A stretch of 64,000 nucleotides of DNA from Stenotrophomonas maltophilia (lineage in GTDB: Bacteria; Pseudomonadota; Gammaproteobacteria; Xanthomonadales; Xanthomonadaceae): assembly GCF_004920835.1 (NCBI RefSeq), contig NZ_QFHO01000014.1, positions 1 to 64,000 on the forward strand, read 5' to 3'. Under the pieces are notes generated by a model. The model had not been told where the DNA came from and made no database searches. It worked only from the letters and a program-made list of their open reading frames with translations. Shown in pieces: positions 1-49,049 of this stretch. Positions within the stretch are counted from its first letter, which is position 1; every line of letters starts with the position of its first letter. The position numbers were made by a program, and so were the translations under genes.

Positions 1-93
1 GGGTCCGGTTGCGGGGGACGCCGTAAACCCATCCATGGGGGCTTGGCCGCGGCATCCATGCCGCGGACACCCCCGCAACCGGACCCACCCCGC
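1..93. repeat. Large inverted-repeat element, copy 1 (left end cut by window)
   Basis: Arms GGGTCCGGTTGCGGGGG (1-17) and its exact complement (70-86) enclose about 52 bases holding two further hairpins, both with ATCCAT at the tip: around 28-40 and the longer CCGCGGC/GCCGCGG stem at 47-66. The right arm continues as CACCCCGCC to about 93, matching copies at 39331, 39584 and 48789, so the element probably begins a few bases left of the window. No coding content is visible. Confidence 0.8.
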
Positions 94-143
94 CTTCGAC
101 AGGTTCCGCGATCGGTTGGAATGGCATTGCCTGCTCTTGGTGG

Positions 144-186
144 GTGTCGACCTTGGTCGACACGCAGATCCACGCCATGCGTGGAT
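144..186. repeat. SMAG-like tandem hairpin pair
   Basis: Two short palindromes in tandem: GTGTCGACC-TT-GGTCGACAC (144-163) and ATCCACGC-CAT-GCGTGGAT (168-186). The same pair follows the large element at 49099-49145. They resemble the GTAG-headed SMAG stem-loops of Stenotrophomonas, although here the GTAG heads are degenerate (GTGG, GCAG). They lie just past the 3' end of the VOC gene and could act as an RNA 3'-end structure. Confidence 0.7.
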
Positions 187-209
187 GAATCTCCGCGATT
201 GAAAATCGC

Positions 210-614
210 TCAAGCGATCTCGTACAACTCCAGCGGTAGGTCGTCGGGGTCGGCGAAGAAGGTGAAGCGGCGGCCGGTGTATTCGTCCACGCGGATCGGT
301 TCGCAGGCTATGCCATGCGCGGCCAGGCGCTGGATGAAGGGTTCCAGCATGGCGACGCGGAATGCGAGGTGGCGCAGGCCCTGGGCTTCCGGGCGGCTGG
401 GACGGGGCGGCGGGGAAGGGAAGGAGAACAGTTCCAGCTGGCTGCCGTCGGGCAGTGCCAGGTCCAGCTTCCAGGAGTCGCGCGCGCTGCGGTGGTTCTC
501 GGCCAGCACGCGCAGGCCGAGGATGCGCACGTAGAAGTCTTTCGAGCGCGCGTAGTCGCTGCAGATCAGTGCGGCGTGGTGGATGCCCAGCAGGGCGCAG
601 GCGTCATCGCTCAT
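210..614 (-). CDS. VOC family (glyoxalase/bleomycin-resistance fold) protein
   Basis: A 134-residue single vicinal-oxygen-chelate domain. The N-terminal half reads HHAALICSDYARSKDFYV, the usual first strand and helix of SMU1112c/YaeR-like VOC proteins. The C-terminal half ends in FADPDDLPLELYEI, with the glutamate that is commonly the last metal ligand. The start is the ATG at 614, whose ATGA overlaps the stop of the upstream serine hydrolase by 4 bases, which indicates co-translation. The substrate cannot be told from sequence; relatives include lyases and uncharacterised proteins. Family confident, function unknown. Confidence 0.9.
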   Translation of the reverse strand: MSDDACALLGIHHAALICSDYARSKDFYVRILGLRVLAENHRSARDSWKLDLALPDGSQLELFSFPSPPPRPSRPEAQGLRHLAFRVAMLEPFIQRLAAHGIACEPIRVDEYTGRRFTFFADPDDLPLELYEIA

Positions 615-1681
615 TGCAGGGTGTCCAGCCAGCGCTGGGCAATCTTCTGCGCCAGCGGATAGGGTTCGGGGTCGTTGCGGTTGCTCAGCACGATCACGGT
701 CAGGTGCTTTTCCGGATGGCGCACGATCACGTTGCGGAAACCGATGCTCTCGCCGCTGTGCCATTGCACCGGCCCGTTCAGGCGCCAGCCGAAGCCGTAG
801 TGCGGCACGTCGGCTTCGGGCGTCGACGTGGCCGGGCTGAACATCGCGCGGCGCGAGGCCTTCGACAGCAGGCGGTCGTCATACAGCGCGGCATCCCAGC
901 GGGCGAGGTCGTCCAGCGAGGAATAGATGCCGCCATCACCCAGCACGGCGCTGGTGGTGCTCTGGTCGGTGCGTTGCCAGTGGCCGTCCAGCTCGCTGTA
1001 GCCATAGGCGCGCTGAGCCACCACATCGACGCCGTCCTGGTGGGCCACGGTATGGGCCATGCCCAGCGGGCGGAAGATCCGCTGTTGCAGGAAGCCCGCG
1101 AAATCCTGGCCGGAGGCGCGGCCGACGATCAGCGCCAGCAGCGCGTAGCCACTGTTGCTGTAGCGGTATTGCGTGCCGGGTGCGAAGTTCAAGCGGTCCG
1201 CGCGCGACAGCAGGGCCAGCACATCGGCATCGTGCACCTGGCGGGTGCCGGCCGGGTCCATCAGGTCTTCGTAATCGAGCAGGCCACTGGTGTGCGAGAG
1301 CAGTTGGCGGATCGTGATGTCCGCCGCCACCGGGGGCAGCTCCGGCAGCCAACGTCGGGCCGGCTGGTCGAGCCCAAGCCGGCCATCCTCCACCAGCAGC
1401 AGCACAGCCGCGGCGGTGAACTGCTTGCTGACCGAGGCCAGCCGGAAGTTGCTGGCCGGAGTGACTGCGGTGCGGTCTTCCACCACCGCCAGGCCATAGC
1501 CGCGGCGGAACACCGGTTTGCCGTCGTGCAGCACCAGCACGGCGGCGCCGGGCACCTGGCCGTCGTAGGCCTGCATCAGGCCGTCGATGCCCGTATCCGG
1601 TGGGGTCAGCACCGGTGCGGCGGCGCCCGCCAGAGGCAGCAGGCCCAGCACGGCAGCGAACAGGGCGACGGCAGGGCGCAT
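611..1681 (-). CDS. Serine hydrolase, beta-lactamase class C/PBP-like family
   Basis: 356 residues with an N-terminal signal peptide ending near AGAAA (about residue 22), so probably periplasmic. The penicillin-recognising fold shows the SxxK motif S83-V-S-K86, a YSN triad (YRYSNSGY, about residue 165) and HSGES in place of KTG near the C terminus, as in esterase-type class C relatives. It likely hydrolyses an ester or peptide bond through Ser83; nothing singles out beta-lactam resistance. It is translationally coupled to the downstream VOC gene by a 4-base overlap. It could equally be a D-amino-acid peptidase or an esterase. Confidence 0.9.
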   Translation of the reverse strand: MRPAVALFAAVLGLLPLAGAAAPVLTPPDTGIDGLMQAYDGQVPGAAVLVLHDGKPVFRRGYGLAVVEDRTAVTPASNFRLASVSKQFTAAAVLLLVEDGRLGLDQPARRWLPELPPVAADITIRQLLSHTSGLLDYEDLMDPAGTRQVHDADVLALLSRADRLNFAPGTQYRYSNSGYALLALIVGRASGQDFAGFLQQRIFRPLGMAHTVAHQDGVDVVAQRAYGYSELDGHWQRTDQSTTSAVLGDGGIYSSLDDLARWDAALYDDRLLSKASRRAMFSPATSTPEADVPHYGFGWRLNGPVQWHSGESIGFRNVIVRHPEKHLTVIVLSNRNDPEPYPLAQKIAQRWLDTLQ

Positions 1682-1697
1682 GACGGCTCCAGAGGGG

Positions 1698-3638
1698 TCA
1701 GGGCGAAGGCGTGGGCGTGGTGCTGGCCGGCTGCGCCATCCAGCGTTCCATCTTGCGGCTCAGTACGTCCAATGGCATCGAGCCGTCCTTCAGCAGTTCG
1801 GCGTGGAAACGTCGCAGGTCGAAGGCTGCGCCCTGCCGTGCCTTGGCCTTGTCGCGCAGGGCCACGATGGTGGTCAGGCCGGCCACGTTGGACAGCGCCT
1901 GGCCGGGCTGGGCCATGATCCGCTCGACTTCGGCGTTGGCGTCATCGCTGCTCATGTCCACGGTCTTCTGCAGGTAGGCCACGGCCTGTTGCTTGCTCCA
2001 GCCCTGCGCGTTCACACCGGTGTCGGCCACTACGCGCGCGGCGCGCAGCAGGCGCGAGTACAGATAACCGATGCGGTCATAAGGGTCGGTGTAGATGCCG
2101 AGATCCTCGCCCAGGGTTTCCGCGTACAGGCCCCAGCCTTCGACGAAGGCAAGGTCGCCACCCAGGCGGCGGAAGCGCGGCAGCTTGGCAAGTTCCTGCT
2201 GCAGGCCCAGCTGCACGTGGTGGCCGGGAATGGCTTCATGCAGGTACTGCACCGGCACGCTCCAACGCTTGCGGCTGGGCAGGTCTCGGGTGTTGACGTA
2301 CAGCAGGCCTGGTTGCCCGGCCGGCGACGGCTGGTAGGCCGCCGCAGCGGAGGTGAGTGCACGCTCGGGCTCCACCGCGCGTATTTCCAGTGTGGACTTG
2401 GGCAGGGTGTCCAGCACCTGTGGCAGGCGCGCGTTGACCTGCTGCTGCACCTGGCGATAGCGGTTGATCAACGCATTGGCGTCGCCGTACTGGAACTGGC
2501 GGTCGTTGCGCATGCTGCGCAGCAGCTTGGACGGCGTACCGCGCAGCTTGGCGTCCTTCATCACCGTGGCGATCTGAGCCTGCAGCTCCTGCACGCGCTG
2601 CTCGCCCAGCGCGTGCAGCTGCGCGGCGGTCTGGTCGCTGGCGGTGGTCTGCACGATCAGGTTGGCATACCAGGCCTGGCCATCGGGCAATGCGCCCAAG
2701 CCGCTGCTGGCGCGGGTGGCCGGCAGGTACTCGGTGGCGATGAAGCCGCGCAGGGCACGGTAGGCCGGCATGATGCGCAGTTCGATCATGCGCTTGTACT
2801 CAGCACTGATACGCGCCTTGTCCTCGGCTGCGATGGTGTTCGGCATGGTGCGGATCGGCGACCAGAAGATGCTCTCCTCAGCGGTTGGCTTGATCACTGC
2901 ATCCAACTGCGGAATAACCTTCTCCATCAGGTCGCGCGGCTGCACCACGCCGGCCTTCACGCCCTGCCGCATGTTGTCGATGGCCTGGTCGAACAGCTCG
3001 GGAATGCCCAGCGAGCGGCGCGACCAGGTGTCGTAGTCCTGCGCGGTATTGAACGGCTGCGCGCCGGCACCGGAACCGAGGATCGCCATGATGCTGCCGA
3101 CGTTGTAGTACTGGCTGATCGGCATCATCCAGCTCGGGTAACGCTCGGCGGCCAGCGAGGCGCGCGCATCGCGCACGAAGATCTCGTAGCTGAGCAGGTC
3201 CTGGCCCTGCAGGCCGTCATTGCCGAGTTTCTCGACCTTGCCCAGCCATTCGGTAGTGAAGTCGTGCGACTGCTGGCGCCAGGTGGGGGACAGGATGTTG
3301 GGCAGCTGGTCGTTGTAGCGGGTCTCGCCCTGGAAGGTGGCCTGCAGCGGATTCAACCGCATCGAGGCATCCCAGTACTCGTCGTACAGGCGCTCCAGCT
3401 GCACCTGCTTGGGCACGGCGCGGGCCGGTGCGACGGGACGTGGCGCAGCGCGGCGCGCCGAACTGCCACGGGCCGGCGCGGTGGCGCGGGCGGGCCTGGC
3501 CTTGGGCTTGGCGGCCTGGCGGGTCTGCGCGGCGGCAGGGCGGCTGGCCTTCTTCTTCGCTGCTTCGGCCGACGGAACGGCACTGAACAGGAACAACGCG
3601 GCGATGGCGGCGGCCAGGGCGCGGGTGGGATGCGGCAT
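1698..3638 (-). CDS. DUF885 family secreted metallopeptidase-like protein
   Basis: 646 residues from the ATG at 3638, chosen because it opens directly onto a signal peptide (MPHPTRALAAAIAALF...AEA) and has GGAAG upstream; an in-frame ATG at 3677 would add 13 residues before it. A Lys/Ala/Pro-rich linker (about residues 24-75) precedes the DUF885 domain. The diagnostic HEAIPGHH motif is at 467-474, a zinc-binding HExxxGHH-type signature. DUF885 proteins are regarded as zinc peptidases; the substrate here is unknown. Probably periplasmic. It lies 16 bases upstream of the serine hydrolase on the same strand, so the two may be co-transcribed. Confidence 0.88.
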   Translation of the reverse strand: MPHPTRALAAAIAALFLFSAVPSAEAAKKKASRPAAAQTRQAAKPKARPARATAPARGSSARRAAPRPVAPARAVPKQVQLERLYDEYWDASMRLNPLQATFQGETRYNDQLPNILSPTWRQQSHDFTTEWLGKVEKLGNDGLQGQDLLSYEIFVRDARASLAAERYPSWMMPISQYYNVGSIMAILGSGAGAQPFNTAQDYDTWSRRSLGIPELFDQAIDNMRQGVKAGVVQPRDLMEKVIPQLDAVIKPTAEESIFWSPIRTMPNTIAAEDKARISAEYKRMIELRIMPAYRALRGFIATEYLPATRASSGLGALPDGQAWYANLIVQTTASDQTAAQLHALGEQRVQELQAQIATVMKDAKLRGTPSKLLRSMRNDRQFQYGDANALINRYRQVQQQVNARLPQVLDTLPKSTLEIRAVEPERALTSAAAAYQPSPAGQPGLLYVNTRDLPSRKRWSVPVQYLHEAIPGHHVQLGLQQELAKLPRFRRLGGDLAFVEGWGLYAETLGEDLGIYTDPYDRIGYLYSRLLRAARVVADTGVNAQGWSKQQAVAYLQKTVDMSSDDANAEVERIMAQPGQALSNVAGLTTIVALRDKAKARQGAAFDLRRFHAELLKDGSMPLDVLSRKMERWMAQPASTTPTPSP

Positions 3639-3733
3639 CAAGAAGCTTCCGTGGAACACAGACCGTGGAGCTTGCACGATCCGACCGCGTACGGCCAGCG
3701 TGAAGGCGCAGTCAGCTTGCCGGCGCTGGGACT

Positions 3734-4519
3734 TCAGTCAGCCGCGGCGGCGGCACGCAGTGCGGCGGCGCGATCGGCGCCCAGATAGCGGGTGATAGCC
3801 CGCCGCATCAGGTACAGCAACGGAATCAGGGCAATCGCAAAGCCCATCTTGTACACGTAGTTGACGCTGGCGACTGCCAGGAACAGCGAGGTCGGCCAGT
3901 GTTGCGGGCCCAGCACGAAGGCGATCCAGATCACCACGAAGCTGTCCACCACCTGCGAGATCGCGGTCGAGCCGGTCGCACGCAGCCACACGTGGCGCTC
4001 ACCGGTAGCCTGGCGGATGCGGTGGAACACCGCCACGTCGATCAGCTGGCCGAGCAGGAAGGCCACCAGCGAACCGGCGATGGTCCACATGCCCTGGCCG
4101 AACACCGCAGCGAACGCGGCCTGGTAGTCGGGCACGCCGTAGCCGTTCATCGACGTTACCCACCAGCTGGCCGGTGCCAGCGAGATCGCTGCGAAGGCGA
4201 ACAGGAAACCGTAGCCGATCAGCACCACCGCCAGCCACGAGATGAAGCGCACGCCGCGCTTGCCGAAGAACTCGTTGATGGTGTCGGTCATGATGAACAC
4301 CACCGGCCACAACAGGGTCCCGGCGGTGAAGCTGAGCGAGCCGGTCTGGCCGAACAGGTTCCAGTTCAGCGGATCGATGCCGAGCGTGTCTTCGAGGGCG
4401 AAGATCTTCACCCCGATCAGCTCGGCCAGCACCGCGTTGCCGCAGAAGAACGCGGCCAGCACGATGAACAACAGGACCGCACGGTCCTGCAGCGGGCGCT
4501 CGAATGGCGCCGCGGTCAT
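3734..4519 (-). CDS. Queuosine precursor transporter (YhhQ/VUT, DUF165 family)
   Basis: A 261-residue inner-membrane protein with about six hydrophobic segments. Recognisable family stretches are NAVLAELIGVKIF near the N terminus, TLLWPVVFIMTDTINEFFGKRGVRF and AFLLGQLIDVAVFHRIR. Members import preQ0/preQ1, precursors of the queuosine tRNA modification. The start codon overlaps the stop of the upstream DUF502 gene by 4 bases, so the pair is translated together. That leaves no room for its own leader or a preQ1 riboswitch directly upstream. Transport specificity is inferred from family only. Confidence 0.9.
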   Translation of the reverse strand: MTAAPFERPLQDRAVLLFIVLAAFFCGNAVLAELIGVKIFALEDTLGIDPLNWNLFGQTGSLSFTAGTLLWPVVFIMTDTINEFFGKRGVRFISWLAVVLIGYGFLFAFAAISLAPASWWVTSMNGYGVPDYQAAFAAVFGQGMWTIAGSLVAFLLGQLIDVAVFHRIRQATGERHVWLRATGSTAISQVVDSFVVIWIAFVLGPQHWPTSLFLAVASVNYVYKMGFAIALIPLLYLMRRAITRYLGADRAAALRAAAAAD

Positions 4520-5199
4520 TCGGCGCGATCGCCGGCGCGGGTGAACGGCACGGTGGGCGGGGCAACCGCGCCGCCGGAGATGATGAAGCTCATCGCCTGG
4601 TCCACGGTCCAGTCGGTCGGGGTCAGCAGCTCGACCGGCACGATCTCCAGATAGCCCGAGGTCGGGTTCGGCGTGGTCGGCACGTATACCGCGGCCAGCT
4701 CACGATCGGTGCCGTGTTCCTTGATGACCCGGGTCACCAGGCCGACCGACTTCATGTCGCGGTGCGGGAAGTCGATCAGCACCACGCGCTGGGTGCTGCC
4801 CGGCTCGGTCTGCAGCATGTCCAGCAGCTTCTTGGCGCTGTCGTAGATGATGCTGGCCAGTGGAATGCGCTTGATGACCGCGCCGACCCAGCGCAGCAGG
4901 CGCTGGCCGAGCACGCGGCGGCTGGCCACGCCCACCGCCAGGATCACCAGCAGGGTGGCCAGCAGGGCGATGATGTCCTGGATCCACTCGGCACGGACCC
5001 AACCGAGATAATGCGGGAAGTTTGTCGCGATCTGCTCGGACAATGGCACCACCAGCGGACTGGAAATGCCCGACAGCAGCACGAACACGAATTTGACCAC
5101 GACCCAGGTCAGCCAGATCGGCAGCAGGGTCAGCAGGCCGGTGAGAAACAGGCGCTGCAGGGAGGGGCGGGGGACCAGGGCGGGGGCTTCGAGCGACAT
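4516..5199 (-). CDS. DUF502 family membrane protein
   Basis: 227 residues. Two membrane segments are clear (about 15-45, LFLTGLLTLLPIWLTWVVVKF, and about 75-105, IIALLATLLVILAVGVASRR), followed by a soluble domain with PLASIIYDSAKKLLDML and VLIDFPHRDMKSVGLVT, typical of DUF502. The biochemical role of the family is not established. It is the first gene of a two-gene unit with the queuosine-precursor transporter (4-base overlap) and diverges from the unknown gene at 5276. Confidence 0.88.
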   Translation of the reverse strand: MSLEAPALVPRPSLQRLFLTGLLTLLPIWLTWVVVKFVFVLLSGISSPLVVPLSEQIATNFPHYLGWVRAEWIQDIIALLATLLVILAVGVASRRVLGQRLLRWVGAVIKRIPLASIIYDSAKKLLDMLQTEPGSTQRVVLIDFPHRDMKSVGLVTRVIKEHGTDRELAAVYVPTTPNPTSGYLEIVPVELLTPTDWTVDQAMSFIISGGAVAPPTVPFTRAGDRAE

Positions 5200-5275
5200 G
5201 CGCGCATTGTAGCGGTCACTGCCGGTCGATTACGCTGGGTGATCGACTGCGGCAACGGCACATGGAAGGGAAGCT

Positions 5276-6589
5276 GTGTTGAAGATCCTGCGCGGACTGG
5301 GCTGGACCCTGGGCGGCCTGTTGGTGCTGGCGATCGTGGTGTGGTGCGCCTCGCGCATGTGGCCCGTGCCCGAATCGAGGGTGCTGGCGCAGCAGCGACT
5401 GGAGGCGCGCCTGCCGGCGACCGGGCGCAATGGCTATGCGCTGTTGTGGACGCTTCCGTTTGACGGGCTGGATGCCCGCCAGCGTGAGCAGGCGCTGGCC
5501 GAGGACGCGCGGCGCTGGGCGGCCGACCCGCGGGGCGGCAGTATTGGCCAGACCCACCTGGCGGCCAGCCACGCCGAGCTGCACTCACGGCCAGGTGCCA
5601 GTTGCGGGCCGACTGCCAGCAACTGCCTGGCCCAGGTGCGCGCCGACCCGCAACGCTTCGTGGACGCCCACGCCGGGCACCAGCAGTTGCACACGCGCCT
5701 GGACCAACTGGCTGAAGCGGACCACTTCGTGTCCCCATTCCAGCCGAAGGGCGAGGGCATTCTCGTCCCGTTGCCGACCTATGGCCTGGTGGTGGACGCC
5801 ACCAGCGCCCGCGCGCTGGCCTATGTGCAGGGCGACGTCGAGGGTGCGTTGCGCGGCAGTTGCCGTGGCCTGCAGCTGGGCCGTCGGCTGGTGCCCGGGG
5901 GCAGCTACCTGGTCGAAAGCATCGTCGGTGCCAGCCTGGTCCAGGCCAACGCCCAGCTGCTGGCCGACATGCTGGTGGAACTGCCCGCCGACCATCCCTT
6001 GCCGGTCGAGTGCGAGCAGGCGATGCAGCCGATGCTGGCTGACGAACAAAGTCTGTGCCGCGCGACACAGGGGGAGTACGCAATGAGCCGGGCAGCGATT
6101 GAAACCTCGGCGAGCGAATTCGGCGGCGTACTGGTGCTGGACCGCAGCAGCACCCTGGCACGCGTGGCCGGCAATCTCGGCTGGGCCTGTGGTGCCACCG
6201 CCATGGCGGCGCTGGAAGCAGATCGACCGTTGCCGGTGCAGGCACCGCCGCAGCGGGATTTCGGTTGCCTGTCCAACGTCATGGGTTGCGTATTGACCGA
6301 CATTGCGGCGCCGATCTATCCCGCGTATTCGTCCCGGACCCAGGACGCTGCGGCGATGCTGCGCCTGCTGGGTGCACAACGCTGGCTGCGCCAGCAGGCC
6401 GGTGATCCGGTCGATGCACTGCAGCGGTTGCCCGCGCAGTTCCGCTCGCCGGTACGCACCCCGCGCCTGTCGGCCGATGGCAGCCGCCTGCAGGTGCCAC
6501 GCCGCTCGCCGCCGCGCAGCAACGATGAAAGCGCCTGGCTGTCGGTACCACTGGCCGCAGGTGCGCCTTCAACCGCCGCACGCGATTGA
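5276..6589 (+). CDS. Unknown protein with one N-terminal membrane anchor
   Basis: 437 residues starting at a GTG (5276) preceded by GGAAGGGA. Residues about 7-25 form one hydrophobic segment (LGWTLGGLLVLAIVVWCAS), likely a signal anchor with the rest in the periplasm. Several cysteines are scattered through the body (for example GASCGPTASNCL and GCVLTDIAAP), which would suit periplasmic disulfides. I recognise no domain. The gene stands alone: DUF502 diverges on its left and a convergent unknown gene ends 8 bases beyond its stop. Codon use matches its neighbours, so it is probably real. Confidence 0.8.
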   Translation: MLKILRGLGWTLGGLLVLAIVVWCASRMWPVPESRVLAQQRLEARLPATGRNGYALLWTLPFDGLDARQREQALAEDARRWAADPRGGSIGQTHLAASHAELHSRPGASCGPTASNCLAQVRADPQRFVDAHAGHQQLHTRLDQLAEADHFVSPFQPKGEGILVPLPTYGLVVDATSARALAYVQGDVEGALRGSCRGLQLGRRLVPGGSYLVESIVGASLVQANAQLLADMLVELPADHPLPVECEQAMQPMLADEQSLCRATQGEYAMSRAAIETSASEFGGVLVLDRSSTLARVAGNLGWACGATAMAALEADRPLPVQAPPQRDFGCLSNVMGCVLTDIAAPIYPAYSSRTQDAAAMLRLLGAQRWLRQQAGDPVDALQRLPAQFRSPVRTPRLSADGSRLQVPRRSPPRSNDESAWLSVPLAAGAPSTAARD

Positions 6590-6597
6590 GGGCAGGT

Positions 6598-7314: not shown

Positions 7315-7361
7315 TGGAGCCTCCATGGCGGGGAGGCAGAGAATAGCGCCAATGCCGCCGA

Positions 7362-7814: not shown

Positions 7815-7887
7815 GCGGGTCCGGGGGGCGCAGGGCGAGGCCTACAGTCTAGCCATTCGCATGCGTATGTTGCACCTGGGCCGGTGT

Positions 7888-20272: not shown

Positions 20273-20360
20273 GTAGCGTCGAGCTTGCTCGACTGCTGCG
20301 GAAAACCAGTCGAGCAAGCTCGACTCTACCCAGGTGCAGCCTAGCCATGCTCGGCTTTAC
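20273..20360. repeat. SMAG-like GTAG repeat cluster (three stem-loops)
   Basis: GTAG-headed hairpin GTCGAGC-TT-GCTCGAC begins at 20273; its inverted counterpart ending CTAC is at 20306-20329. A third, CAGCCTAGCCATGCTCGGCTTTAC, is at 20337-20360. The third overlaps the TAA stop of the antiporter gene (20357-20359). Inverted pairs of this kind are typical of REP/SMAG dimers and may serve as a bidirectional 3'-end signal for the two convergent genes. Confidence 0.8.
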
Positions 20361-36662: not shown

Positions 36663-36683
36663 GACCGGCTGCATGCTGAAACG

Positions 36684-37903: not shown

Positions 37904-37939
37904 GCGGCAAGTGTGGACGGGCCGCGCGCGGGGGTCAAT

Positions 37940-39226: not shown

Positions 39227-39330
39227 GTCGGCAAGTATAGGGTTGGTCGGCAGGGCTGCGCCCTGCACCCGCAGACGCGCAAGCAACGGCAACGGCCGAA
39301 GCAACAGCAGAAGCGGGTTTCCTGAGGGCA

Positions 39331-39433
39331 GGCGGGGTGGGTCCGGTTGCGGGGGGGCGCTGCAAGTACATCCATGTAAGCTCGGTCGCCGCATCCATGC
39401 GGCTCACGCCCCCGCAACCGGACCCACCCCGCC
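39331..39433. repeat. Large inverted-repeat element, copy 2
   Basis: Arms of 25 bases (39331-39355 and 39409-39433; core GTGGGTCCGGTTGCGGGGG) flank two small hairpins with ATCCAT tips: GTAC-ATCCAT-GTA near 39366 and GCCGC-ATCCAT-GCGGC at 39388-39403. The right side continues as TTCGACAG, as in copies 1 and 4. Confidence 0.85.
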
Positions 39434-39469
39434 TTCGACAGTTTCCTGCGAGCTGTCCGGCATGTTGAT

Positions 39470-39510
39470 GGGGTCAGATCCGTTTTCCGCAGGAAAACGG
39501 ATCTGACCCC
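39470..39510. repeat. Perfect 19-base-pair palindrome
   Basis: GGGGTCAGATCCGTTTTCC, loop GCA, then its exact complement. This type of GGGGTCAGATCC palindrome is distinct from SMAG and from the large element. It could be a bidirectional stop or a repeat family of its own; it has no T-run of useful length. Confidence 0.8.
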
Positions 39511-39540
39511 GGATTCAATTCGATATCTGACAGATCTGAT

Positions 39541-39562
39541 CCACGCATGGCGTGGATCTACC
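39541..39562. repeat. SMAG-like hairpin (reverse orientation)
   Basis: CCACGCATGGCGTGGATCTAC is the reverse complement of the GTAGATCCACGCCATGCGTGG unit seen at 43593 and 49122, ending in CTAC. It sits between the 19-bp palindrome and copy 3 of the large element. Confidence 0.75.
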
Positions 39563-39583
39563 GGCCGCCGGAAAACTGTCGAA

Positions 39584-39685
39584 GGCGGGGCACTGTGGGT
39601 TTGCGGGGTGTGAGCCGCATGGATGCGGCGATCAAGGCTACATGGACGTACTTGCGCCGTCCCCGCAAACCCACAGTGCCCCGCC
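39584..39685. repeat. Large inverted-repeat element, copy 3 (reversed, divergent arms)
   Basis: The arms 39584-39608 and 39661-39685 are perfect 25-base complements, but their sequence (core CACTGTGGGTTTGCGGGG) differs from copies 1, 2 and 4 (GTGGGTCCGGTTGCGGGGG). Inner hairpins again carry the ATCCAT tip, seen here as ATGGAT (GCCGC-ATGGAT-GCGGC), so the copy is inverted. Its flank CACGGAATGCAC...GCTGTTGCTTCGG mirrors the left flank of copy 4. Confidence 0.85.
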
Positions 39686-39761
39686 ATCCCACGGAATGCA
39701 CGCTGTTGCTTCGGCTGTTGCCGTTGCGTCTGCAGGTGCAGGGCGCAGCCCTGCCGAAAAC

Positions 39762-42010: not shown

Positions 42011-42164
42011 GGACGCTGGGATCTCACAAACTGTAACGGGACGTTCATTATGCCCGCCCTCGCAAGGCACGCCGATGACACACTGATTTGCCCGCCCGGC
42101 GGTCGTTCTGCGGGCCGCCTTGGGCTATCGTGCCAGCATCCCTTCCTTCCCCTCTGGATTGCCT

Positions 42165-43499
42165 ATGAAGCTGGTCTCTGCCTGGCTGCGGATTCCATTC
42201 TGGCAGCGCGTGGTCGGTGGCTTCGTGCTTGGCGCGCTGGCCGGCTGGGCGCTCGGCCCGGCTGCTGAAACCTGGTTCGGCCCGCTGGGCGAGCTGTACG
42301 TCACCCTGATCAAGATGATCGCGGTGCCGCTGGTGTTCTTCGCGGTCATCAATGCGATCTCGTCGCTGCACGGCCAGAAGTCGGTCGCCGCGCTCAGTGG
42401 CCGCACCTTCCTGTGGTTCGTGATCACCGCAGCGCTGGCGGTCTGCGTCGGCCTGGGCGTGGGCACCGTTCTGCAGCCCGGCGCCGGTGGCCTGCAGCTG
42501 TCGATGGCGAGCAACTACGTGCCGCGTGAAGTGCCCAGCGTGGTGCAGGTGCTGCTGGACGTGGTACCGGCCAATGTCTTCTACGCGCTGTCCGGCATCG
42601 GCACCAAGGTCAACGCAGCGGGTGAAACCGTGCTGGCCGCCGGCCGAGGCTCGATCCTGCCGGTGATCTTCTTCGCCGGCCTGGTCGGCTTTGCCATCGT
42701 CAAGCTGGGCGAGAAGGTGACCGAAGCGCGCAAGCTGGTCGGGCAGATGAGCGACATCATGATCCAGGTGACCCGCTTCGTGCTTGAGGTTACCCCGATC
42801 GGTACCTTCGGCCTGATCGCCGGCCTGGTCGGCAGCTATGGCTTCGAGAAGCTGCTGCCACTGGGTCATTTCGTGCTGGCGCTGTATGTCGCCTGCGCGC
42901 TGCACATCGTGGTGGTCTACAGCGCGCTGCTGCTTGCCCATGGCCTGAACCCGCTGAAGTTCTTCCGTGGTGCGGCGCCGGGCATGCAGGTCGCCTTCGT
43001 CAGTTCGTCCAGCTTCGCTGCGATGCCGGTGGCGCTGCGTTCGATCACCCACAACCTGGGTGTGAACAAGGACTACGGTTCGTTCGCCGTGCCGCTGGGC
43101 GCGAGCATCAAGATGGACGGCTGCGGCGCGATCTACCCGGCGCTGTGCGCGGTGTTCATCGCGCAGTACAGCGGCGTGCCGCTGACGCCGGAACAGTACG
43201 TGGTGGTGCTGATCGCCTCGGTGCTGGGCAGCTTCGGCACCGCCGGCGTACCGGGTACGGCGGTCATCATGGCCACCGTGGTGCTGAGTGCGGCCAACCT
43301 GCCGCTGGAAACCATCGGTTACCTGTACGCGATCGACCGCATCCTGGACATGATGCGCACGATGACCAATGTGACCGGCCAGATGCTGGTACCGGTGATC
43401 GTGGCCAAGGAAACCGGGTTGCTCGACCAAGCGGTGTACGACAACCCGTCCAGCAACGTGGGCGTGGACGATCCAGATCCGACGCCGCCACGCGGCTGA
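42165..43499 (+). CDS. Dicarboxylate/amino-acid:cation symporter (DAACS, SLC1 family)
   Basis: 444 residues from the ATG at 42165. SLC1-fold landmarks: LGELYVTLIKMIAVPLVFFAVINAISSL near the N terminus, the serine-rich hairpin FVSSSSFAAMPVAL, and KMDGCGAIYPALCAVF with SFGTAGVPGTAVIM in the binding region. It carries dicarboxylates or acidic/neutral amino acids into the cell with Na+ or H+; the exact substrate is not decided by sequence (GltP, DctA and SstT are alternatives). Single gene with its own terminator. Confidence 0.93.
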   Translation: MKLVSAWLRIPFWQRVVGGFVLGALAGWALGPAAETWFGPLGELYVTLIKMIAVPLVFFAVINAISSLHGQKSVAALSGRTFLWFVITAALAVCVGLGVGTVLQPGAGGLQLSMASNYVPREVPSVVQVLLDVVPANVFYALSGIGTKVNAAGETVLAAGRGSILPVIFFAGLVGFAIVKLGEKVTEARKLVGQMSDIMIQVTRFVLEVTPIGTFGLIAGLVGSYGFEKLLPLGHFVLALYVACALHIVVVYSALLLAHGLNPLKFFRGAAPGMQVAFVSSSSFAAMPVALRSITHNLGVNKDYGSFAVPLGASIKMDGCGAIYPALCAVFIAQYSGVPLTPEQYVVVLIASVLGSFGTAGVPGTAVIMATVVLSAANLPLETIGYLYAIDRILDMMRTMTNVTGQMLVPVIVAKETGLLDQAVYDNPSSNVGVDDPDPTPPRG

Positions 43500-43513
43500 G
43501 GTTGCGTGGAAAT

Positions 43514-43543
43514 GAAAGGCCCGCCCTGACCGGCGGGCCTTTT
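43514..43543 (+). terminator. Intrinsic terminator of the symporter gene
   Basis: AAAGGCCCGCC, loop CTGACC and GGCGGGCCTTTT, 14 bases past the stop, with a T4-G-T3 tail. Confidence 0.9.
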
Positions 43544-43580
43544 GTTTGGGGGATGGCGGACGCGTTGCCGACCAAGGCGG

Positions 43581-43591
43581 CCCCCCCCCCC
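43581..43591. repeat. C11 homopolymer tract
   Basis: Eleven consecutive C residues between the symporter terminator and the SMAG pair. Such a tract may vary in length by slippage or be a sequencing artefact. It is not within any gene. Confidence 0.8.
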
Positions 43592-43592
43592 G

Positions 43593-43644
43593 GTAGATCC
43601 ACGCCATGCGTGGATGGAGAGTGCCGACCAAGGTCGGCAGCTAC
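43593..43644. repeat. SMAG-like inverted hairpin pair
   Basis: GTAGATCCACGC-CAT-GCGTGGAT (43593-43615) followed by GTGCCGACC-AA-GGTCGGCAG ending CTAC (43621-43644). The GTAG head of one faces the CTAC of the other, a typical REP dimer. It lies between convergent genes. Confidence 0.85.
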
Positions 43645-43664
43645 CCACCCATAACGGGCACAAC

Positions 43665-43695
43665 AAAAAAGCCGCTGCAGGGGCAGCGGCTTTTT
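43665..43695 (-). terminator. Terminator of the first NlpC/P60 gene
   Basis: On the minus strand GCCGCTGC, CCCT loop and GCAGCGGC lead into six T residues (A6 at 43665-43670). T5 on the plus-strand side would also allow stopping in the other direction. Confidence 0.9.
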
Positions 43696-43732
43696 CTCCT
43701 ATCAGGCGGCGCCGTGGCGCCAGCGGGCCAGA

Positions 43733-44506
43733 TCAGAGGTCGACCCGGCGGGCCTGCATGAACTTGTTGCCCCAGTAGCCACTGAGCAGGGTGTCCACGC
43801 GGACGTCCTTGCCCGAGCTCGGAGCGTGCAGGAAGCGGCCGTCGCCAACATAGATGCCGACGTGGTCAACACGGCCCTTGCGGCCGAAGAAGACCAGGTC
43901 ACCCGCGGCCAGCGCGGTGCGGTCATTGATCAGTTCGGCGTTGTCGTCGTGCGCCATCTCGCGCGAGACGCGCGGCAGCTCGATGCCCAGGGCCGAGCGG
44001 AACACGTAGCCGACCAGGCCGCTGCAATCGAAACCGCTGTCCGGGTTGCTGCCACCCCAACGGTACGGGGTACCCAGCAGCGTCATTGCGCGGCGCAGCA
44101 GCGACTGCACCTTGCCGTTGTCGGCGGCGGTACCGACAACGCTGCCGTTGGCGGCGCTGCTGGTGTCGTAGTTGGCAAGCAGGCGGCTGAGGTCGCCGGC
44201 CACTACGGCCGAGCGGTCCATCAGCGGAATGGTGTCGTTGGCGGCCAGGTGCGGCAGCAGGGCGGCCAGCGTGGCGCTGGCGGCGGCATCGACGCGGCTG
44301 CGCTGCGGAGCAGCAGCCTCGGCCTTGGCAGCCGGTCGGGCGGTGTTCTCGGCCGCCGGGGCCGGGGTCACATCGGAACGGTTCGGAGCAGTCTGCGACC
44401 AGGCCGGAAGGCTGGTCAGACACAGTGCCAAGCCAAGCAACAGCGGGCGGGCACTACGTGAAGATACGGAAGTCTGGCCTTCGCTTTTCAGGTCGTCAGT
44501 CGTCAC
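43733..44506 (-). CDS. Secreted NlpC/P60 (C40) peptidoglycan hydrolase
   Basis: 257 residues from a GTG at 44506. A signal peptide ends near AWS-Q (about residue 38). An Ala/Pro-rich linker precedes the C-terminal NlpC/P60 domain (about 130-257). Catalytic Cys is in DSGFDCSGLVGYVF and the His in VDHVGIYVGDGRFLHAPSSG. It cleaves stem peptides of peptidoglycan, most likely D-Glu-meso-DAP bonds. A second C40 gene lies 131 bases upstream on the same strand, with a lipid anchor instead of a free signal peptide. Confidence 0.93.
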   Translation of the reverse strand: MTTDDLKSEGQTSVSSRSARPLLLGLALCLTSLPAWSQTAPNRSDVTPAPAAENTARPAAKAEAAAPQRSRVDAAASATLAALLPHLAANDTIPLMDRSAVVAGDLSRLLANYDTSSAANGSVVGTAADNGKVQSLLRRAMTLLGTPYRWGGSNPDSGFDCSGLVGYVFRSALGIELPRVSREMAHDDNAELINDRTALAAGDLVFFGRKGRVDHVGIYVGDGRFLHAPSSGKDVRVDTLLSGYWGNKFMQARRVDL

Positions 44507-44637
44507 GCGTCGGTCACAGGAAAAAAACGATGGGGCATCATGCCCTGCGGACGCATCTAAAAGTTAAAAATTCCGTTATAAAACCGTTATTTTGATGGTG
44601 ATGGACGTCACACTTTTGAACATATCGCCTGTTCATT
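44507..44637. other. AT-rich gap between the two C40 genes
   Basis: 131 bases markedly richer in A and T than their surroundings (for example AAAAGTTAAAAATTCCGTTATAAAACC split over 44560-44586). This is the likely promoter region of the minus-strand gene at 44506. I could not fix a convincing -35/-10 pair. Confidence 0.5.
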
Positions 44638-45177
44638 TTAGCGAAGAACACGTTTTGCGCCGGTGTAGTGGTCTTTCCAATAGGGCCCGCTGAGCGAATC
44701 GAGGCGAACCGTACCGCCGGTGCTCGGCGCGTGCACGAAGCGTCCTTCACCTACATAAATGCCTACATGGGTGACGCTGCCGCGGCTGCCGAAGAACACC
44801 AGGTCACCCGTGGCCAGGCGCTGCGGATCGATCTTCGGGCCCTGCACCGCGGCCAGGTCGCGCGAGGTCCGCGGCAGCTTCAGGTCCAGCATCTCGCGAT
44901 AGACGTAGGCGACCAGTCCGCTGCAGTCGAAGCCCGAATCAGGCGTGTTGCCGCCATAGCGGTAAGGCGTGCCGACCAGGCTGATGGCGCGCATCAGCAC
45001 CGAGTTGGCGGCCTCGGGATTGTCCGGCACCGTCTTCGGCCAGTTCGCCGAGGGCGGTGGTGGGGCCGGGCGCGTGGCCTTGCCGCCGCCACAGGCGGTC
45101 ATCAACAGGGGCAGGGCCAGCAGCAGGGCCGGGGCGAGGAGCCGGCGCGGGCCGGACGAAACTGGCGTGATCTGCAT
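44638..45177 (-). CDS. NlpC/P60 (C40) peptidoglycan hydrolase, lipoprotein (Spr-like)
   Basis: 179 residues from the ATG at 45177. The lipobox LMTAC makes Cys29 the lipidated residue. After a Pro-rich linker (RPAPPPPSANWP) the C40 domain (about 60-179) shows Cys in DSGFDCSGLVAYVY and His in VTHVGIYVGEGRFVHAPSTG. It resembles the Spr/MepS type, a murein DD-endopeptidase, in size and anchoring. Its paralogue is downstream; the two share long identical stretches around the catalytic Cys and His, suggesting duplication. Confidence 0.93.
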   Translation of the reverse strand: MQITPVSSGPRRLLAPALLLALPLLMTACGGGKATRPAPPPPSANWPKTVPDNPEAANSVLMRAISLVGTPYRYGGNTPDSGFDCSGLVAYVYREMLDLKLPRTSRDLAAVQGPKIDPQRLATGDLVFFGSRGSVTHVGIYVGEGRFVHAPSTGGTVRLDSLSGPYWKDHYTGAKRVLR

Positions 45178-45288
45178 GATCTCCGGATAATGCGCCACCT
45201 TGGATTGGCCGTCATGATGGCGGCGTCCCCGCCGGGCGACAACCCGCCCCAACCCGCCTGCCTCCGGCAGATCCATACAGAGTTGCGC

Positions 45289-45771
45289 ATGAAGATCGAA
45301 AAAGACCGCGTTGTCCGCTTCCACTACACCGTTTCCGAAGCCGGCCAGGAGCCGATCGAATCGTCCAAGGACCGCGGCGAGCCGCTGGCGATCCTGATTG
45401 GCCACGGCAACATCATCCCGGGCCTGGAAAACGCCATGATGGACAAGGAAGCCGGCGCGACCTTCAATGTCGACGTCAAGGCGGCCGACGCCTACGGCGA
45501 GCGCCGTGACGGCCTGTCCCAGCGCGTGCCGAAGAAGCACTTCGGCAACACCAAGCTGGTCCCGGGCCAGCAGGTCGTGCTGCAGACCAACTTCGGCCCG
45601 CGTGCGGTGACCGTGCAGAAGGTCGGCATGAGCGTTGTCGACGTTGACCTGAACCACCCGATGGCCGGCAAGGACCTGCATTTCGACGTGGAAATCGTCG
45701 ACGTGCGCGAAGCCGGCAAGGAAGAGCTCGACCACGGCCACGTCCACGGCGACGGTGGTCACCAGCACTGA
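45289..45771 (+). CDS. slyD: SlyD-type FKBP peptidyl-prolyl isomerase
   Basis: 160 residues from the ATG at 45289. The FKBP half-domains are split by an IF (insert-in-flap) domain as in SlyD: IGHGNIIPGLENAMMDKEAG and AADAYGERRDGLSQRVPKKHF. The C-terminal tail has five His residues interspersed with Asp/Gly (DHGHVHGDGGHQH), a short metal-binding tail compared with Escherichia coli SlyD. It isomerises proline bonds and may take part in nickel supply. It diverges from the lipoprotein gene at 45177. Confidence 0.95.
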   Translation: MKIEKDRVVRFHYTVSEAGQEPIESSKDRGEPLAILIGHGNIIPGLENAMMDKEAGATFNVDVKAADAYGERRDGLSQRVPKKHFGNTKLVPGQQVVLQTNFGPRAVTVQKVGMSVVDVDLNHPMAGKDLHFDVEIVDVREAGKEELDHGHVHGDGGHQH

Positions 45772-45897
45772 TCGCAGCGCGATCGTGATGGCTGCAACGG
45801 CCCGCTACGGCGGGCCGTTGCGTTTGTGGAACACGGCGCGGCCATCCATGGCGCGCAGGCCAGCGGCATAATGGCGAATCTGCCCGACGGATCCCCC

Positions 45898-47115
45898 GTG
45901 AACGCCGCTTCTCCTTCCCTGCAGCCGGTGGCTTCCGGCGAACGCATCGCGGTGCTGGACATGCTGCGCGGTGCCGCGCTGCTGGGCATCCTGCTGATGA
46001 ACATCGAGGCCTTCAGCGGACCGCTGGATCTGGCTTTCACCGGCATCGACGCGCATTGGCAGGGCATCGACTATTGGGCTGACGCCTTCGTCTACGTGTT
46101 CGTGCAGGGCAAGTTCTTTACCTTGTTCTCGCTGCTGTTCGGTGCCGGCTTTGCGGTGATGGCGCAGCGCGCTGAAGTGGCCGGGCGTGGCTTCACTCCG
46201 TTCTACCTGCGCCGCAGCGCCGGACTGCTGCTGATCGGGTTGTGCCATGCGCTGCTGGTCTGGTCCGGTGACATCCTGGTGATGTACGCGCTGGTGTCGC
46301 TGCCGTTGCTGGCTTGCCGCGAGGCGCCGCGCAGCTGGCTGCCATGGATGGGCGTGATGCTCTATCTGGGCGGTGTGGTGATGATGCTGATGGTCGGCGC
46401 GATGGTATCGATGGCCTCGGACGAGGATGTGCAGAAAATGCTGGCTGAGGCGCAGCAGAGCATCGATCAGCAACGGTTGGTGTACGGGCACGGCAGCTGG
46501 ATGCAGGCCAACGTGCAGCGGTTGAGCGAGTTCGGCACGTCGATGGGTGCGCTGCTGATCACCGGCCCCGAAGTGCTGGGCATGTTCCTGATTGGCAGCT
46601 GGTTCGCCGGCAGCGGTGCGCTGGTGGCGCCGGAGCGCTTCCCGCGGCTGTACGCGGTGCTGCGCTGGATTGCGCTGCCGCTGGGCCTGCTGGTCACGGT
46701 ACTGGGCGTTGCCTGGAAGCCGTACCTGGTGCCGGGTGCCTACGACCTGCCGGTGACAGCCGCGATGGCACTGGTGACGATCGGCGGTCTGCTGATGTGC
46801 TTGGGCTACCTGGCGTGGATCGTGCGCTGGCGCACGCAGCTGGGTTGGCTGGCACCGGTCGGGCGCATGGCGCTGACCCATTACCTGGCGCAGTCGCTGG
46901 TCTGCACGCTCCTGTTCTATCACTACGGCCTGGGATGGTTCGAGGTGATGCCTCGCAGCGTGCAGCTGCTGTCGGCATTGCTGCTGTTCGCCAGCCAGGT
47001 GGTGATCAGCCATCTCTGGTTGCGTCGGTTCCGCTTTGGTCCGATGGAATGGCTGTGGCGAGCGATGACCTACGGGCAATTGCCGGCGATGCGACGTGTT
47101 GCCGGGCAGGGCTGA
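45898..47115 (+). CDS. DUF418 family membrane protein
   Basis: 405 residues from a GTG at 45898 with GGA 7 bases before it; in-frame ATGs at 45871 and 45826 are alternatives. The opening ERIAVLDMLRGAALLGILLMNIEAF is the DUF418/acyltransferase-3-like N terminus. About nine to ten membrane helices follow, with LGWLAPVGRMALTHYLAQSLV and WLWRAMTYGQLP in the DUF418 C-terminal domain. Function unknown. It follows slyD on the same strand after a 126-base gap. Confidence 0.88.
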   Translation: MNAASPSLQPVASGERIAVLDMLRGAALLGILLMNIEAFSGPLDLAFTGIDAHWQGIDYWADAFVYVFVQGKFFTLFSLLFGAGFAVMAQRAEVAGRGFTPFYLRRSAGLLLIGLCHALLVWSGDILVMYALVSLPLLACREAPRSWLPWMGVMLYLGGVVMMLMVGAMVSMASDEDVQKMLAEAQQSIDQQRLVYGHGSWMQANVQRLSEFGTSMGALLITGPEVLGMFLIGSWFAGSGALVAPERFPRLYAVLRWIALPLGLLVTVLGVAWKPYLVPGAYDLPVTAAMALVTIGGLLMCLGYLAWIVRWRTQLGWLAPVGRMALTHYLAQSLVCTLLFYHYGLGWFEVMPRSVQLLSALLLFASQVVISHLWLRRFRFGPMEWLWRAMTYGQLPAMRRVAGQG

Positions 47116-47330
47116 TCGATGCCTGGCACACACGCCGTTGACCTTGATCGCCGCCATCATCTGTGCAGCTGTTGCAGATCATCGGTCGCGTCAGTTCACG
47201 TCTGGCCTGCAGTGGGCCGTGTCATGCTCGATATCAGCATGAGTGCCGGCACCGGCCCGCTGATCACCGATCCTGTCTGCGACCGTCCACCCGTGATCGA
47301 TCCTGCCTCCTACCGACCCGAGCGATTCCG

Positions 47331-48689
47331 ATGAGCACTGCACCCTATGATTACGATCTGATCGTCCTTGGCGGTGGCTCCGCCGGCCTGGCTGGCGCGA
47401 TCCGCGCCGCGCAGCACGGCAAGCGCGTGGCGATGCTGGAGCCGGGCGAACTGGGCGGGACCTGCGTCAATGTCGGCTGCGTGCCGAAGAAGGCGATGTG
47501 GCTGGCGGCCGACCTGCACGAGCGCATCGGCCTGGCCAGTGCGATGGGCTTCGATGTCCAAGCGCGCCCGGCACTTTCCTGGAAGGAACTGGTGATCCAT
47601 CGCCAGGCCTACATCAGCAACATCCACACCAGCTACCACAAGCGCCTGGATGAGACCGGCGTGGTGCGTATTCCAGCGCGTGGCCATCTGCTGGATGCGC
47701 ACACCGTGGCCTGTAGCGATGGTGTGCGCTACAGCGCCGAGCACATCCTGATCGCCACTGGTGCGCACCCGTTGCGGCCCGACATTCCCGGTGCCGAACT
47801 GGGCCTGGTCTCCGACGATTTCTTCGATCTGCGCGCGGCGCCTGCCGAGGTCGCGATCATCGGGGGTGGTTACATCGCGGTGGAACTGGCGGGCCTGCTG
47901 CAGGCACTGGGCAGCAAGGTCAGCCTGCTGGTGCGCGGCAAGCGACTGCTGGAGCGGTTCGACTACGAACTGACCGATCAGTTGGCCGAGAACCTGAAAC
48001 AGCAGGGCGTGCGCATCCATTTCGACTACCGCCTGCGCGAACTGCAGCGCGATGGTGAACGCGTGCGTGCATTCGGCCATGACGGCCCACTCGACAGCGT
48101 GTTCGATGCGGTGTTCTTTGCTACCGGCCGCCGCGGCAACAGCCGTGATCTGGGCCTGGAAGCACTCGGCATCGGCATCGGCGAGCACCAGCAGGTGCAG
48201 GTGGACGAGTGGCAGACCACGAACGTGCCGAGCGTGCACGCGGTGGGGGACATCGCCGGCAAGGTCGGCCTGACCCCGGTGGCGGTGGCGGCATCGCGGC
48301 GGCTGATGGACCGCCTGTTCGGTGGCCGGCCGCAATCGAAGATGGATTACGAGAACGTGGCCAGCGTAGTGTTCTCGCACCCACCGCTGGGCGCGGTGGG
48401 CATGAGCGAAGAAGAAGCACGCGCGTGTTTCGACCAGGTGAGCGTCTACCACAGCCGTTTCCGCCCGATGCTGCAGGCGCTGGCAAATGGCACCCAGCGC
48501 AGCCTGTTCAAGATGGTCTGCGCCGGCCCGGAAGAACGCGTGGTCGGCATCCATCTGCTGGGCGAGGCCGCAGACGAGATCCTGCAGGGCTTCGCAGTGG
48601 CGGTGAAGATGGGCGCGACCAAGGCCCAGTTCGACGACACCGTGGCGATCCACCCGACGTCTGCTGAAGAAGTGGTGTTGATGCGCTGA
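47331..48689 (+). CDS. gorA: Glutathione-disulfide reductase
   Basis: 452 residues from the ATG at 47331. The FAD fingerprint is DLIVLGGGSAGLAGAIRAA and the redox-active disulfide is CVNVGC (about residues 45-50). The NADP-binding fold is AIIGGGYIAVELAG. The C-terminal VAIHPTSAEEVV supplies the His-Glu pair from the second subunit. It regenerates glutathione with NADPH. The 215-base region before it holds no other gene. A SMAG hairpin begins 14 bases after the stop. Confidence 0.95.
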   Translation: MSTAPYDYDLIVLGGGSAGLAGAIRAAQHGKRVAMLEPGELGGTCVNVGCVPKKAMWLAADLHERIGLASAMGFDVQARPALSWKELVIHRQAYISNIHTSYHKRLDETGVVRIPARGHLLDAHTVACSDGVRYSAEHILIATGAHPLRPDIPGAELGLVSDDFFDLRAAPAEVAIIGGGYIAVELAGLLQALGSKVSLLVRGKRLLERFDYELTDQLAENLKQQGVRIHFDYRLRELQRDGERVRAFGHDGPLDSVFDAVFFATGRRGNSRDLGLEALGIGIGEHQQVQVDEWQTTNVPSVHAVGDIAGKVGLTPVAVAASRRLMDRLFGGRPQSKMDYENVASVVFSHPPLGAVGMSEEEARACFDQVSVYHSRFRPMLQALANGTQRSLFKMVCAGPEERVVGIHLLGEAADEILQGFAVAVKMGATKAQFDDTVAIHPTSAEEVVLMR

Positions 48690-48702
48690 GCCGACACTCA
48701 CG

Positions 48703-48726
48703 GTAGTGCCGGCCGCTGGCCGGCAA
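48703..48726. repeat. SMAG-like hairpin after gorA
   Basis: GTAG-TGCCGGCC-GC-TGGCCGGCA: a single GTAG-headed stem-loop 13 bases past the glutathione reductase stop, probably forming the end of its mRNA. Confidence 0.8.
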
Positions 48727-48746
48727 CCTCGACAGCAACGGCCGAA

Positions 48747-48772
48747 GCAACAGCAACAGCAACAGCAACAGC
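48747..48772. repeat. (CAACAG)n short tandem repeat
   Basis: About four consecutive CAACAG hexamers, continuing the AACGGCCGAAGCAACAGC flank that also borders copies 2 and 3 of the large element (only one to two hexamers there). The count is likely variable between strains. Confidence 0.8.
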
Positions 48773-48788
48773 GTGCATTCCGTGGAAT

Positions 48789-49049
48789 GGCGGGGTGGGT
48801 CTGGTTGCGGGGGACGCTGCAAGTCCCCCTCCGGGGCCCGGCCCAGCCGCTGGCGGCTGTGCGTTCGGGCGCTTGCGAAGCAGTGCTTCGCAAGCAAAGC
48901 GCCCTCACCCCCGCAAGCTCGGTCGCCGCTTGCTCGTGTGCGCTGTCCTGCGTACACGGCAAGACCGGGGTTGGGCGTCCTGCCCAACCCGCCCGAGGCG
49001 TGCCTCGGGCCCATGCGGCTCACGCCCCCGCAACCGGACCCACCCCGCC
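48789..49049. repeat. Large inverted-repeat element, copy 4 (expanded interior)
   Basis: Arms 48789-48813 and 49025-49049 pair over 25 bases with one G-T wobble. The interior of about 211 bases holds several extra stems: GCTTGCGAAGC-AGT-GCTTCGCAAGC near 48869-48893, GGGTTGGGC-GTCCT-GCCCAACCC near 48968-48990 and CCCGAGGC-GTG-CCTCGGG. It is a larger version of copies 1-3. No gene is apparent inside, and the gap from gorA to the next gene (569 bases) is otherwise repeats. Confidence 0.8.

Follow-up and report, generated by a model that had tools for sequence, protein, structure and literature searches.

A large variant of repetitive extragenic palindromes with a conserved core and covarying arms in Stenotrophomonas maltophilia and other Gammaproteobacteria

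The elements described here form a real and large family, a variant of repetitive extragenic palindromes for which our searches found no earlier description. They were analysed starting from a 64,000-nt stretch of the Stenotrophomonas maltophilia genome (4.56 Mb, 81 contigs), hereafter the window (G000:C5:1-64000). Each copy is a three-way junction formed by a long outer stem (commonly 25-32 bp) and two hairpins, H1 and H2, and the core inside the stem usually spans 52 nt. The conserved part of the family is this core, not the arms. With somewhat less than even confidence, and from sequence comparison, we read the elements as dispersed non-coding repeats that would work as one folded RNA strand with a dual CsrA/RsmA site and with arms renewed by fold-back.

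Copies in the window

An earlier note on this DNA had described four copies, and all four were re-located in the window sequence where it had placed them. These copies, together with the repeats that accompany them, are as follows.

1..86, plus strand: copy 1, with the right part of the left arm, H1, H2 and the right arm; clipped by the contig start; GGA strand minus
39247..39269, unstranded: left terminal repeat of the composite, TCGGCAGGGCTGCGCCCTGCACC (direct reading)
39331..39433, plus strand: copy 2, with 25-bp arms; H1 with bulge GCAAG and loop ATCCAT; H2 with loop ATCCAT; GGA strand minus
39470..39510, unstranded: hairpin GGGGTCAGATCCGTTTTCC, a different repeat that sits between the paired copies 2 and 3
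39584..39685, minus strand: copy 3, convergent partner of copy 2, with arms of another sequence type; GGA strand plus
39735..39757, unstranded: right terminal repeat of the composite, inverse of 39247-39269 (direct reading)
48789..49049, plus strand: copy 4, long form, with arms 48789-48813 and 49025-49049; GGA strand minus
48825..48912, plus strand: module within the H1 loop of copy 4, its borders read by eye and approximate
48930..49011, plus strand: module within the H2 loop of copy 4, its borders read by eye and approximate

The outer arms had been described as paired in every copy. Pairing was complete in copy 1 (17/17), copy 2 (25/25) and copy 3 (25/25), whereas copy 4 reached 24/25. The right flank CCTTCGACAG was present in 4/4 copies, as claimed; the proposed left flank GCAACAGC...GGAATGGC, by reading, was exact in copy 4 only. 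Copy 3 reads GCAACAGC...GGGATGGC, copy 2 keeps GCAACAGC with a different sequence adjoining the arm, and the left flank of copy 1 lies outside the contig, which begins within the left arm. The palindrome of copy 1 is visible to position 86, and its arm sequence continues to ~94.

Inverted repeats with exact 17-bp arms and a spacing of 40-240 gave five merged matches in the window, against none in 50 order-1 Markov resamples. The five correspond to copies 1, 2 and 3 and two further matches between copies 2 and 3; copy 4 is missing because its one mismatch splits the arms. The composite that holds copies 2 and 3 measures ~510 bp. The gene downstream of it is, by reading of its translation, presumably tilS, and the composite upstream of this gene has the form of a nested palindrome with terminal repeats.

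Close to the elements or in other parts of the window (48703-48725, 49098-49147 and 20273-20329) we also observed GTAG repeats of the SMAG type and further short hairpins. Two more inverted repeats, at 53071-53156 and 51308-51421, were matched by neither of the covariance models introduced below.

Core anatomy and predicted fold

Among 185 elements with arms of 20 bp or more, a filter that leaves out shorter-armed ones, the core measured 52 nt in 140 and the arms 20-34 bp in 184. Read in the orientation of copy 2, the order is left arm, AC, H1, linker, H2, AC, right arm. H1 consists of GCY, the bulge GYAAR, YYC, the loop RTCCNT, GRR and RGC, and the H2 loop is likewise RTCCNT, mostly ATCCNT. 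The reverse strand, here called the GGA strand, thus shows ANGGAY in both hairpin loops, and the two GGA lie 20 nt apart (direct reading of copy 2 and of locus L204). On this strand H1 reads UACAGGGAUGUA in many distant copies, the H1 sequence itself having been the search pattern. Among 67 copies found without a loop pattern, the columns of the loops CANGGA(Y)G were 96-100% conserved except for N and Y, and the stems varied.

For the GGA strand of copy 2, the predicted fold gave the modelled three-way junction; the predicted folds of copy 3 and L204 deviate in H1 or at the junction. Some distant copies (L146, L156, L172) have an extra hairpin beside H2, which in L172 is GCAGAAAAATGCTCCTGCATTTTCTGC.

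Copy 4 is built like the others but has a module of ~80-90 nt in each hairpin loop. The H1 module was spanned by blastn matches in L261, L267 and L268, and part of it matched Halopseudomonas L154 (32 bp, 87.5%, E 1.7e-4, searched against the fetched loci only). Matches in L268 and in L006/L013, a single place of the own genome, spanned the H2 module, through which the predicted fold of the GGA strand gains two more hairpins, each with an AGGA loop. Beside the element of L066 lies a second copy (1168-1440), apparently of the long form; its loops hold GGCCCAGGCCAG...CTCACC, which recurs in genus g40.

Copy number and distribution

Four copies proved to be a large undercount. Searching the own genome by BLAST for copy 2 returned 89 matches (40 of 100 candidates scored), of which many covered a single arm only. 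Covariance model R1, built from 52 own-genome copies, gave 113 matches at E ≤ 0.001 (150 of 5,871 candidates scored), or ~102 distinct copies once nine antisense duplicates and two weak matches that overlapped others had been removed. The count is a minimum, because R1 misses long forms such as copy 4, which was found neither by R1 nor by the second model, R2.

The covariance-model search of related genomes that the earlier note had proposed gave R1 matches in 38/151 genomes of the order and 40/229 of the class. R2, built from 67 sequences of other genomes, matched 32/398 genomes of the phylum, 31 of them in the class of the window; in these scans at most 26 (order), 17 (class) and 10 (phylum) candidates per genome were scored under stricter filters, and zeros are weak. 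The one genome outside the class (G816) had a single weak match (E 9e-4). R1 gave no match in the congeneric genomes G013 and G146. H1-type strings are common in marine Gammaproteobacteria, in line with the class scan and with an exact H1-pattern scan of titled genome records, which returned at least 119 stretches. The 80 matches listed come from Marinobacter, Microbulbifer, Rheinheimera, Halopseudomonas, a Pseudomonas, Thioalkalivibrio, Ectothiorhodospira, Methylotuvimicrobium and others, and the carriers among titled records include methane oxidisers. The expectation of copies in near relatives thus held but was incomplete, since the family extends far past them.

One genome carries a head-to-tail array of six matches with a period of ~227 bp (G638:C1:94418-95646). 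Within the own genome, 11/102 copies lie ≤320 bp from a contig start, compared with ~0.6 expected by simple proportion, and assembly tends to break within these palindromes. Copies near contig starts include C5:1, C34:1, C44:157, C42:214 and C9:242. Spread by plasmids or phages as the main route was rejected, as a 58-nt consensus gave 0 blastn matches in 72,556 plasmid and 50,697 phage records, a weak test with a short query.

Matched arms around shared cores

The observation that both arms of a copy change together was borne out on a larger scale. Two-sided changes affected 29 of 41 pairs in the 52 own-genome copies, and the covariation score was 0.370, compared with 0.119 ± 0.007 after shuffling (0/500 as high). 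The 67 other-genome sequences (alignment A3) showed such changes in 37 of 40 pairs, with 95.3% of cells paired and a score of 0.891 versus 0.198 shuffled (0/500), in an alignment that had been fitted to the model. One of five covariation measures for A3, further pair types, fell under the shuffles (110 vs 121.3). Sliding the partner by 1-3 columns lowered pairing from ~95% to 38-49%. Related genomes therefore hold many further copies with covarying arms, the opposite of what the earlier note had named as grounds for giving up the idea.

In several genomes, shared cores sit within unlike arms. Core identity exceeded arm identity in G326 (10 copies, 0.76 vs 0.37), G238 (5 copies, 0.80 vs 0.41), a Thioalkalivibrio MAG (7 copies, six with equal-length cores, 0.99 vs 0.34) and Marinobacter (6 copies, 0.84 vs 0.41), where for the two titled sets, Thioalkalivibrio and Marinobacter, the search pattern itself had fixed 28 of the 52 core bases. 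Across these four sets, each arm was complementary to its own partner at 0.94-0.97 (0.97 in Thioalkalivibrio). Arms were more alike in genus g6 (0.69) and Microbulbifer (0.56), and dispersed copies share arms in Stenotrophomonas and largely in g6. The ortholog-like pair L141/L164 has identical 30-bp arms, and the flanks of the two loci agree at 91-93% over 186 and 397 bp. Turnover of the arms is therefore not necessarily fast, and we infer that the unlike arms would date from the origin of each copy.

Among near-neighbour arms (40 tree edges, 53 distinct arms), we counted 40 compensated changes, 25 of them with transversions, and 54 half-changes, which on the GGA strand comprised 31 G.U, 7 A.C and 16 other. 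Stepwise compensation through G.U alone was rejected as the sole cause of matched arms on account of these transversions.

Strand bias of arm mismatches

Residual mismatches in the arms, scored on the GGA strand, were far more often G.U than A.C in three alignments (23 vs 9, 46 vs 10 and 112 vs 22), even though the covariance models had been trained on the opposite strand, a choice that ought to push the counts the other way. Scoring 75 arm pairs with no RNA model gave 76 vs 13 (binomial p ~5e-12, with cells treated as independent), and 181 distinct arm pairs gave 162 vs 28. The bias was equal on both arms (81 and 81 vs 14 and 14). It was present beside G-C neighbours (40 vs 6) and beside A-U neighbours (16 vs 4; undirected single changes), so that C-to-T deamination by itself does not account for it. 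The single arm mismatch of copy 4 is of the minority type.

At the loop-closing positions the relation was reversed, with A.C over G.U on the GGA strand (37 vs 0 in alignment A1, 32 vs 0 in A3 and 24 vs 0 in A4). In our interpretation these positions belong to the loop ANGGAY, where Y = C, rather than to the stem. The other inner pairs gave G.U vs A.C counts of 0 vs 4, 8 vs 3 and 21 vs 7, where A1 includes the four innermost pairs of the outer stem.

Because of the predominance of G.U in its arms, the GGA strand seems to be the folded one, and the mismatches are good evidence for one strand being kept folded. The earlier suggestion that selection or a copying mechanism acts on the folded structure is thereby supported and sharpened to one strand, and both may hold. 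Transversions in many matched arm changes fit templated copying, and strand-biased mismatches fit selection on a folded strand; we think that the two together fit best.

Putative dual CsrA/RsmA site and renewal of the arms

The GGA strand would fold into the long outer stem, hairpin H2 and the bulged H1, each hairpin showing an ANGGAY loop. Since its arms tolerate G.U but not A.C mismatches, the folded strand probably acts as RNA. According to PMC7652899, the SELEX consensus for CsrA is RUACARGGAUGU, six-nt loops occurred in 44/55 ligands, and CsrA bridges sites 10-63 nt apart with an optimum above 18. In the elements, GGA lies in hairpin loops of one strand and the two sites fall within 10-63 nt. 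The resemblance of the ANGGAY loops to the SELEX site makes a suggestive case for CsrA recognition, and the two loops may form a dual site for a CsrA/RsmA dimer; transcripts crossing the element would therefore carry a CsrA landing site or decoy. Partner searches covered 56 of the 77 bearers known from the order and class scans, G000 included. CsrA (PF02599) was present in 55/56 element-bearing and 21/24 element-free genomes, which says little because CsrA is near-universal in the group; the one bearer in which it was not found is G344 (98% complete).

The core may spread among intergenic sites, and the arms may be made or renewed as a matched pair, one copied from the other by fold-back templating. 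The locally differing arms around shared cores and the absence of the element from some orthologous sites, described below, speak for this reading. The arms common to dispersed copies in Stenotrophomonas and genus g6 count against such copying. A broader version, in which class-wide mobile CsrA/RsmA landing sites with a 52-nt core and two GGA loops would insert between genes, build their own matched arms from the insertion site by fold-back and thereby seed CsrA-responsive or CsrA-titrating RNA at up to ~100 places per genome, strikes us as rather unlikely.

Genomic context and rival explanations

Only 1 of 218 copies lay inside a predicted gene, the element being otherwise intergenic. Based on our own, crude gene calls, the contexts comprised 54 sense-tandem, 60 antisense-tandem, 49 convergent and 25 divergent, and in 29 a neighbour was off the stretch. 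The GGA strand thus showed no bias relative to the direction of neighbouring genes in these copies (54 sense vs 60 antisense), which counts against a plain mRNA role, since that would predict one. Of 49 neighbour pairs ≤400 bp apart, 43 converge in the copy-2 orientation, with GGA strands pointing outward, one diverges and five are tandem.

Comparison of syntenic intergenic regions, also proposed earlier, showed that the element is absent from some orthologous sites in two genera, g6 and g40. We examined 11 of the 27 genomes of g6: four have the element (one copy in G116, a pair in G436 and G441, and in G068 one matched copy plus a second recognised by eye), and it is missing from the other seven, two of which have another neighbour. 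In g40 (10 genomes searched, including G077), all eight relatives with both anchors are without the inserted 574-bp stretch. Arms could not be traced at these empty sites in g6 and g40, where flanks were too diverged or neighbours had changed. In two g6 species without the element (L347, L348), the same intergenic slot has a different inverted repeat (GTGGGAGGGACTTCAGTCCCGA...). Upstream of tilS, 21 of 30 loci were readable between both anchors and, by reading, 19 of these 21 hold both elements; L267 holds the first only and L271 one internally deleted element. The second place is occupied by three arm types (6, 9 and 4 loci), each with matched arms, within similar flanks in 19 species.

Presence or absence between species, occurrence in either orientation relative to genes with convergent contexts exceeding divergent ones, and the fixed orientation of pairs would all suit a single-stranded DNA mobile repeat without an RNA role, whose GGA strand folds during replication and whose loops are read by an HUH-type (Y1, RAYT-like) transposase that cuts and pastes in trans. 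We regard this explanation as doubtful, if credible. It agrees with the lack of a long target duplication: direct repeats flanking the 185 elements equalled shuffles at most lengths, with a small excess at 3-4 nt abutting (11 vs 3.6) and at 6-8 nt within 10 bp (4 vs 1.0). Y1_Tnp was found in 49/56 bearers compared with 14/24 element-free genomes, yet 7/56 bearers, all drafts, have none at E ≤ 0.001, including G137 (25 element matches) and G222 (15), and the nearest of the three Y1_Tnp genes of the own genome is >5 kb from any listed copy. The search for Y1_Tnp yielded no mobilising enzyme. GTAG/CTAC adjoins the arms in just 3/185 elements, and resident copies of such a repeat need not stay paired, yet their arm mismatches are strongly biased.

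The transversions in compensated arm changes (25/40) and the three matched arm types at the second place near tilS could also be produced without any function, if template switching during replication kept the palindromes perfect and ordinary recombination between intergenic repeats spread them. This account leaves unexplained the strand bias of the mismatches and the class-wide conserved loops and bulge, and we consider it improbable. Bidirectional transcription terminators or stabilisers of mRNA 3' ends, which long stable hairpins in intergenic and more often convergent than divergent contexts might suggest, are very improbable, as they need no conserved loops or bulge and neither strand has a T-run behind the stem (of 185 elements, 4 on the TCC strand and 3 on the GGA strand had ≥5 T among 8 positions; background 8/368), which excludes intrinsic terminators.

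Relation to known repeats and significance

The earlier note knew of no published name for the family, and none was found in the part of the literature that we covered. Six core strings occurred in none of the papers searched, and among 25 papers that contain one of six other short strings, the 20 titles listed do not concern bacterial repeats. The SMAG paper of Rocco et al. 2010 might mention the family. Integron attC sites are likewise folded single strands with variable paired arms, but carry R''/R' boxes at the stem ends; such boxes were found at the arm ends of 0/185 elements, which have a conserved core within variable arms, and attC membership was rejected. Classical MITEs, such as those of Coxiella (PMC5896051), are similarly short, non-coding and dispersed with inverted terminal repeats, and were rejected since in G326, G238, Thioalkalivibrio and Marinobacter the copies do not have terminal repeats in common. 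The direct repeats next to the elements gave no clear target-site duplication.

SMAG repeats are treated in PMC2613905 and PMC3733652, and a REP unit is given as 20-40 bp in the latter. REP/SMAG palindromes and BIMEs resemble our elements in being intergenic, palindromic, of high copy number and arranged in inverted pairs, and SMAG-type repeats adjoin elements in the window. In contrast to the 20-40 nt of REP/SMAG, the elements measure ~104 nt and have a three-way junction, two GGA loops and, in several genomes, unlike arms; GTAG REPs were rejected because GTAG/CTAC occurs ≤8 nt outside the arms in 3/185 and the core alone is 52 nt. Decoys of the CsrB/RsmZ type and CsrA dual sites resemble the elements in having repeated hairpins whose small loops show GGA at a spacing that allows bridging. 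However, CsrB/RsmZ is one sRNA gene, whereas the elements are a dispersed repeat within a long stem, without gene-direction bias and with putative CsrA binding. PMC9788540 concerns two CsrA-related sRNAs, not repeats. Membership in an Rfam family was rejected, as only tRNA in the window and RNase P in 16 other element-bearing loci reached the gathering score; a permissive search of 39230-39760 gave 38 matches, all under gathering scores.

A structured element with ~100 copies in this genome, common to many Gammaproteobacteria and without a matching Rfam family, affects assembly and annotation and may also bear on the CsrA/RsmA network. Should CsrA bind the loops, new post-transcriptional control sites would arise from the repeats. 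If the loops do not bind CsrA, the shared cores in unlike arms would indicate an undescribed route by which a folded strand spreads.
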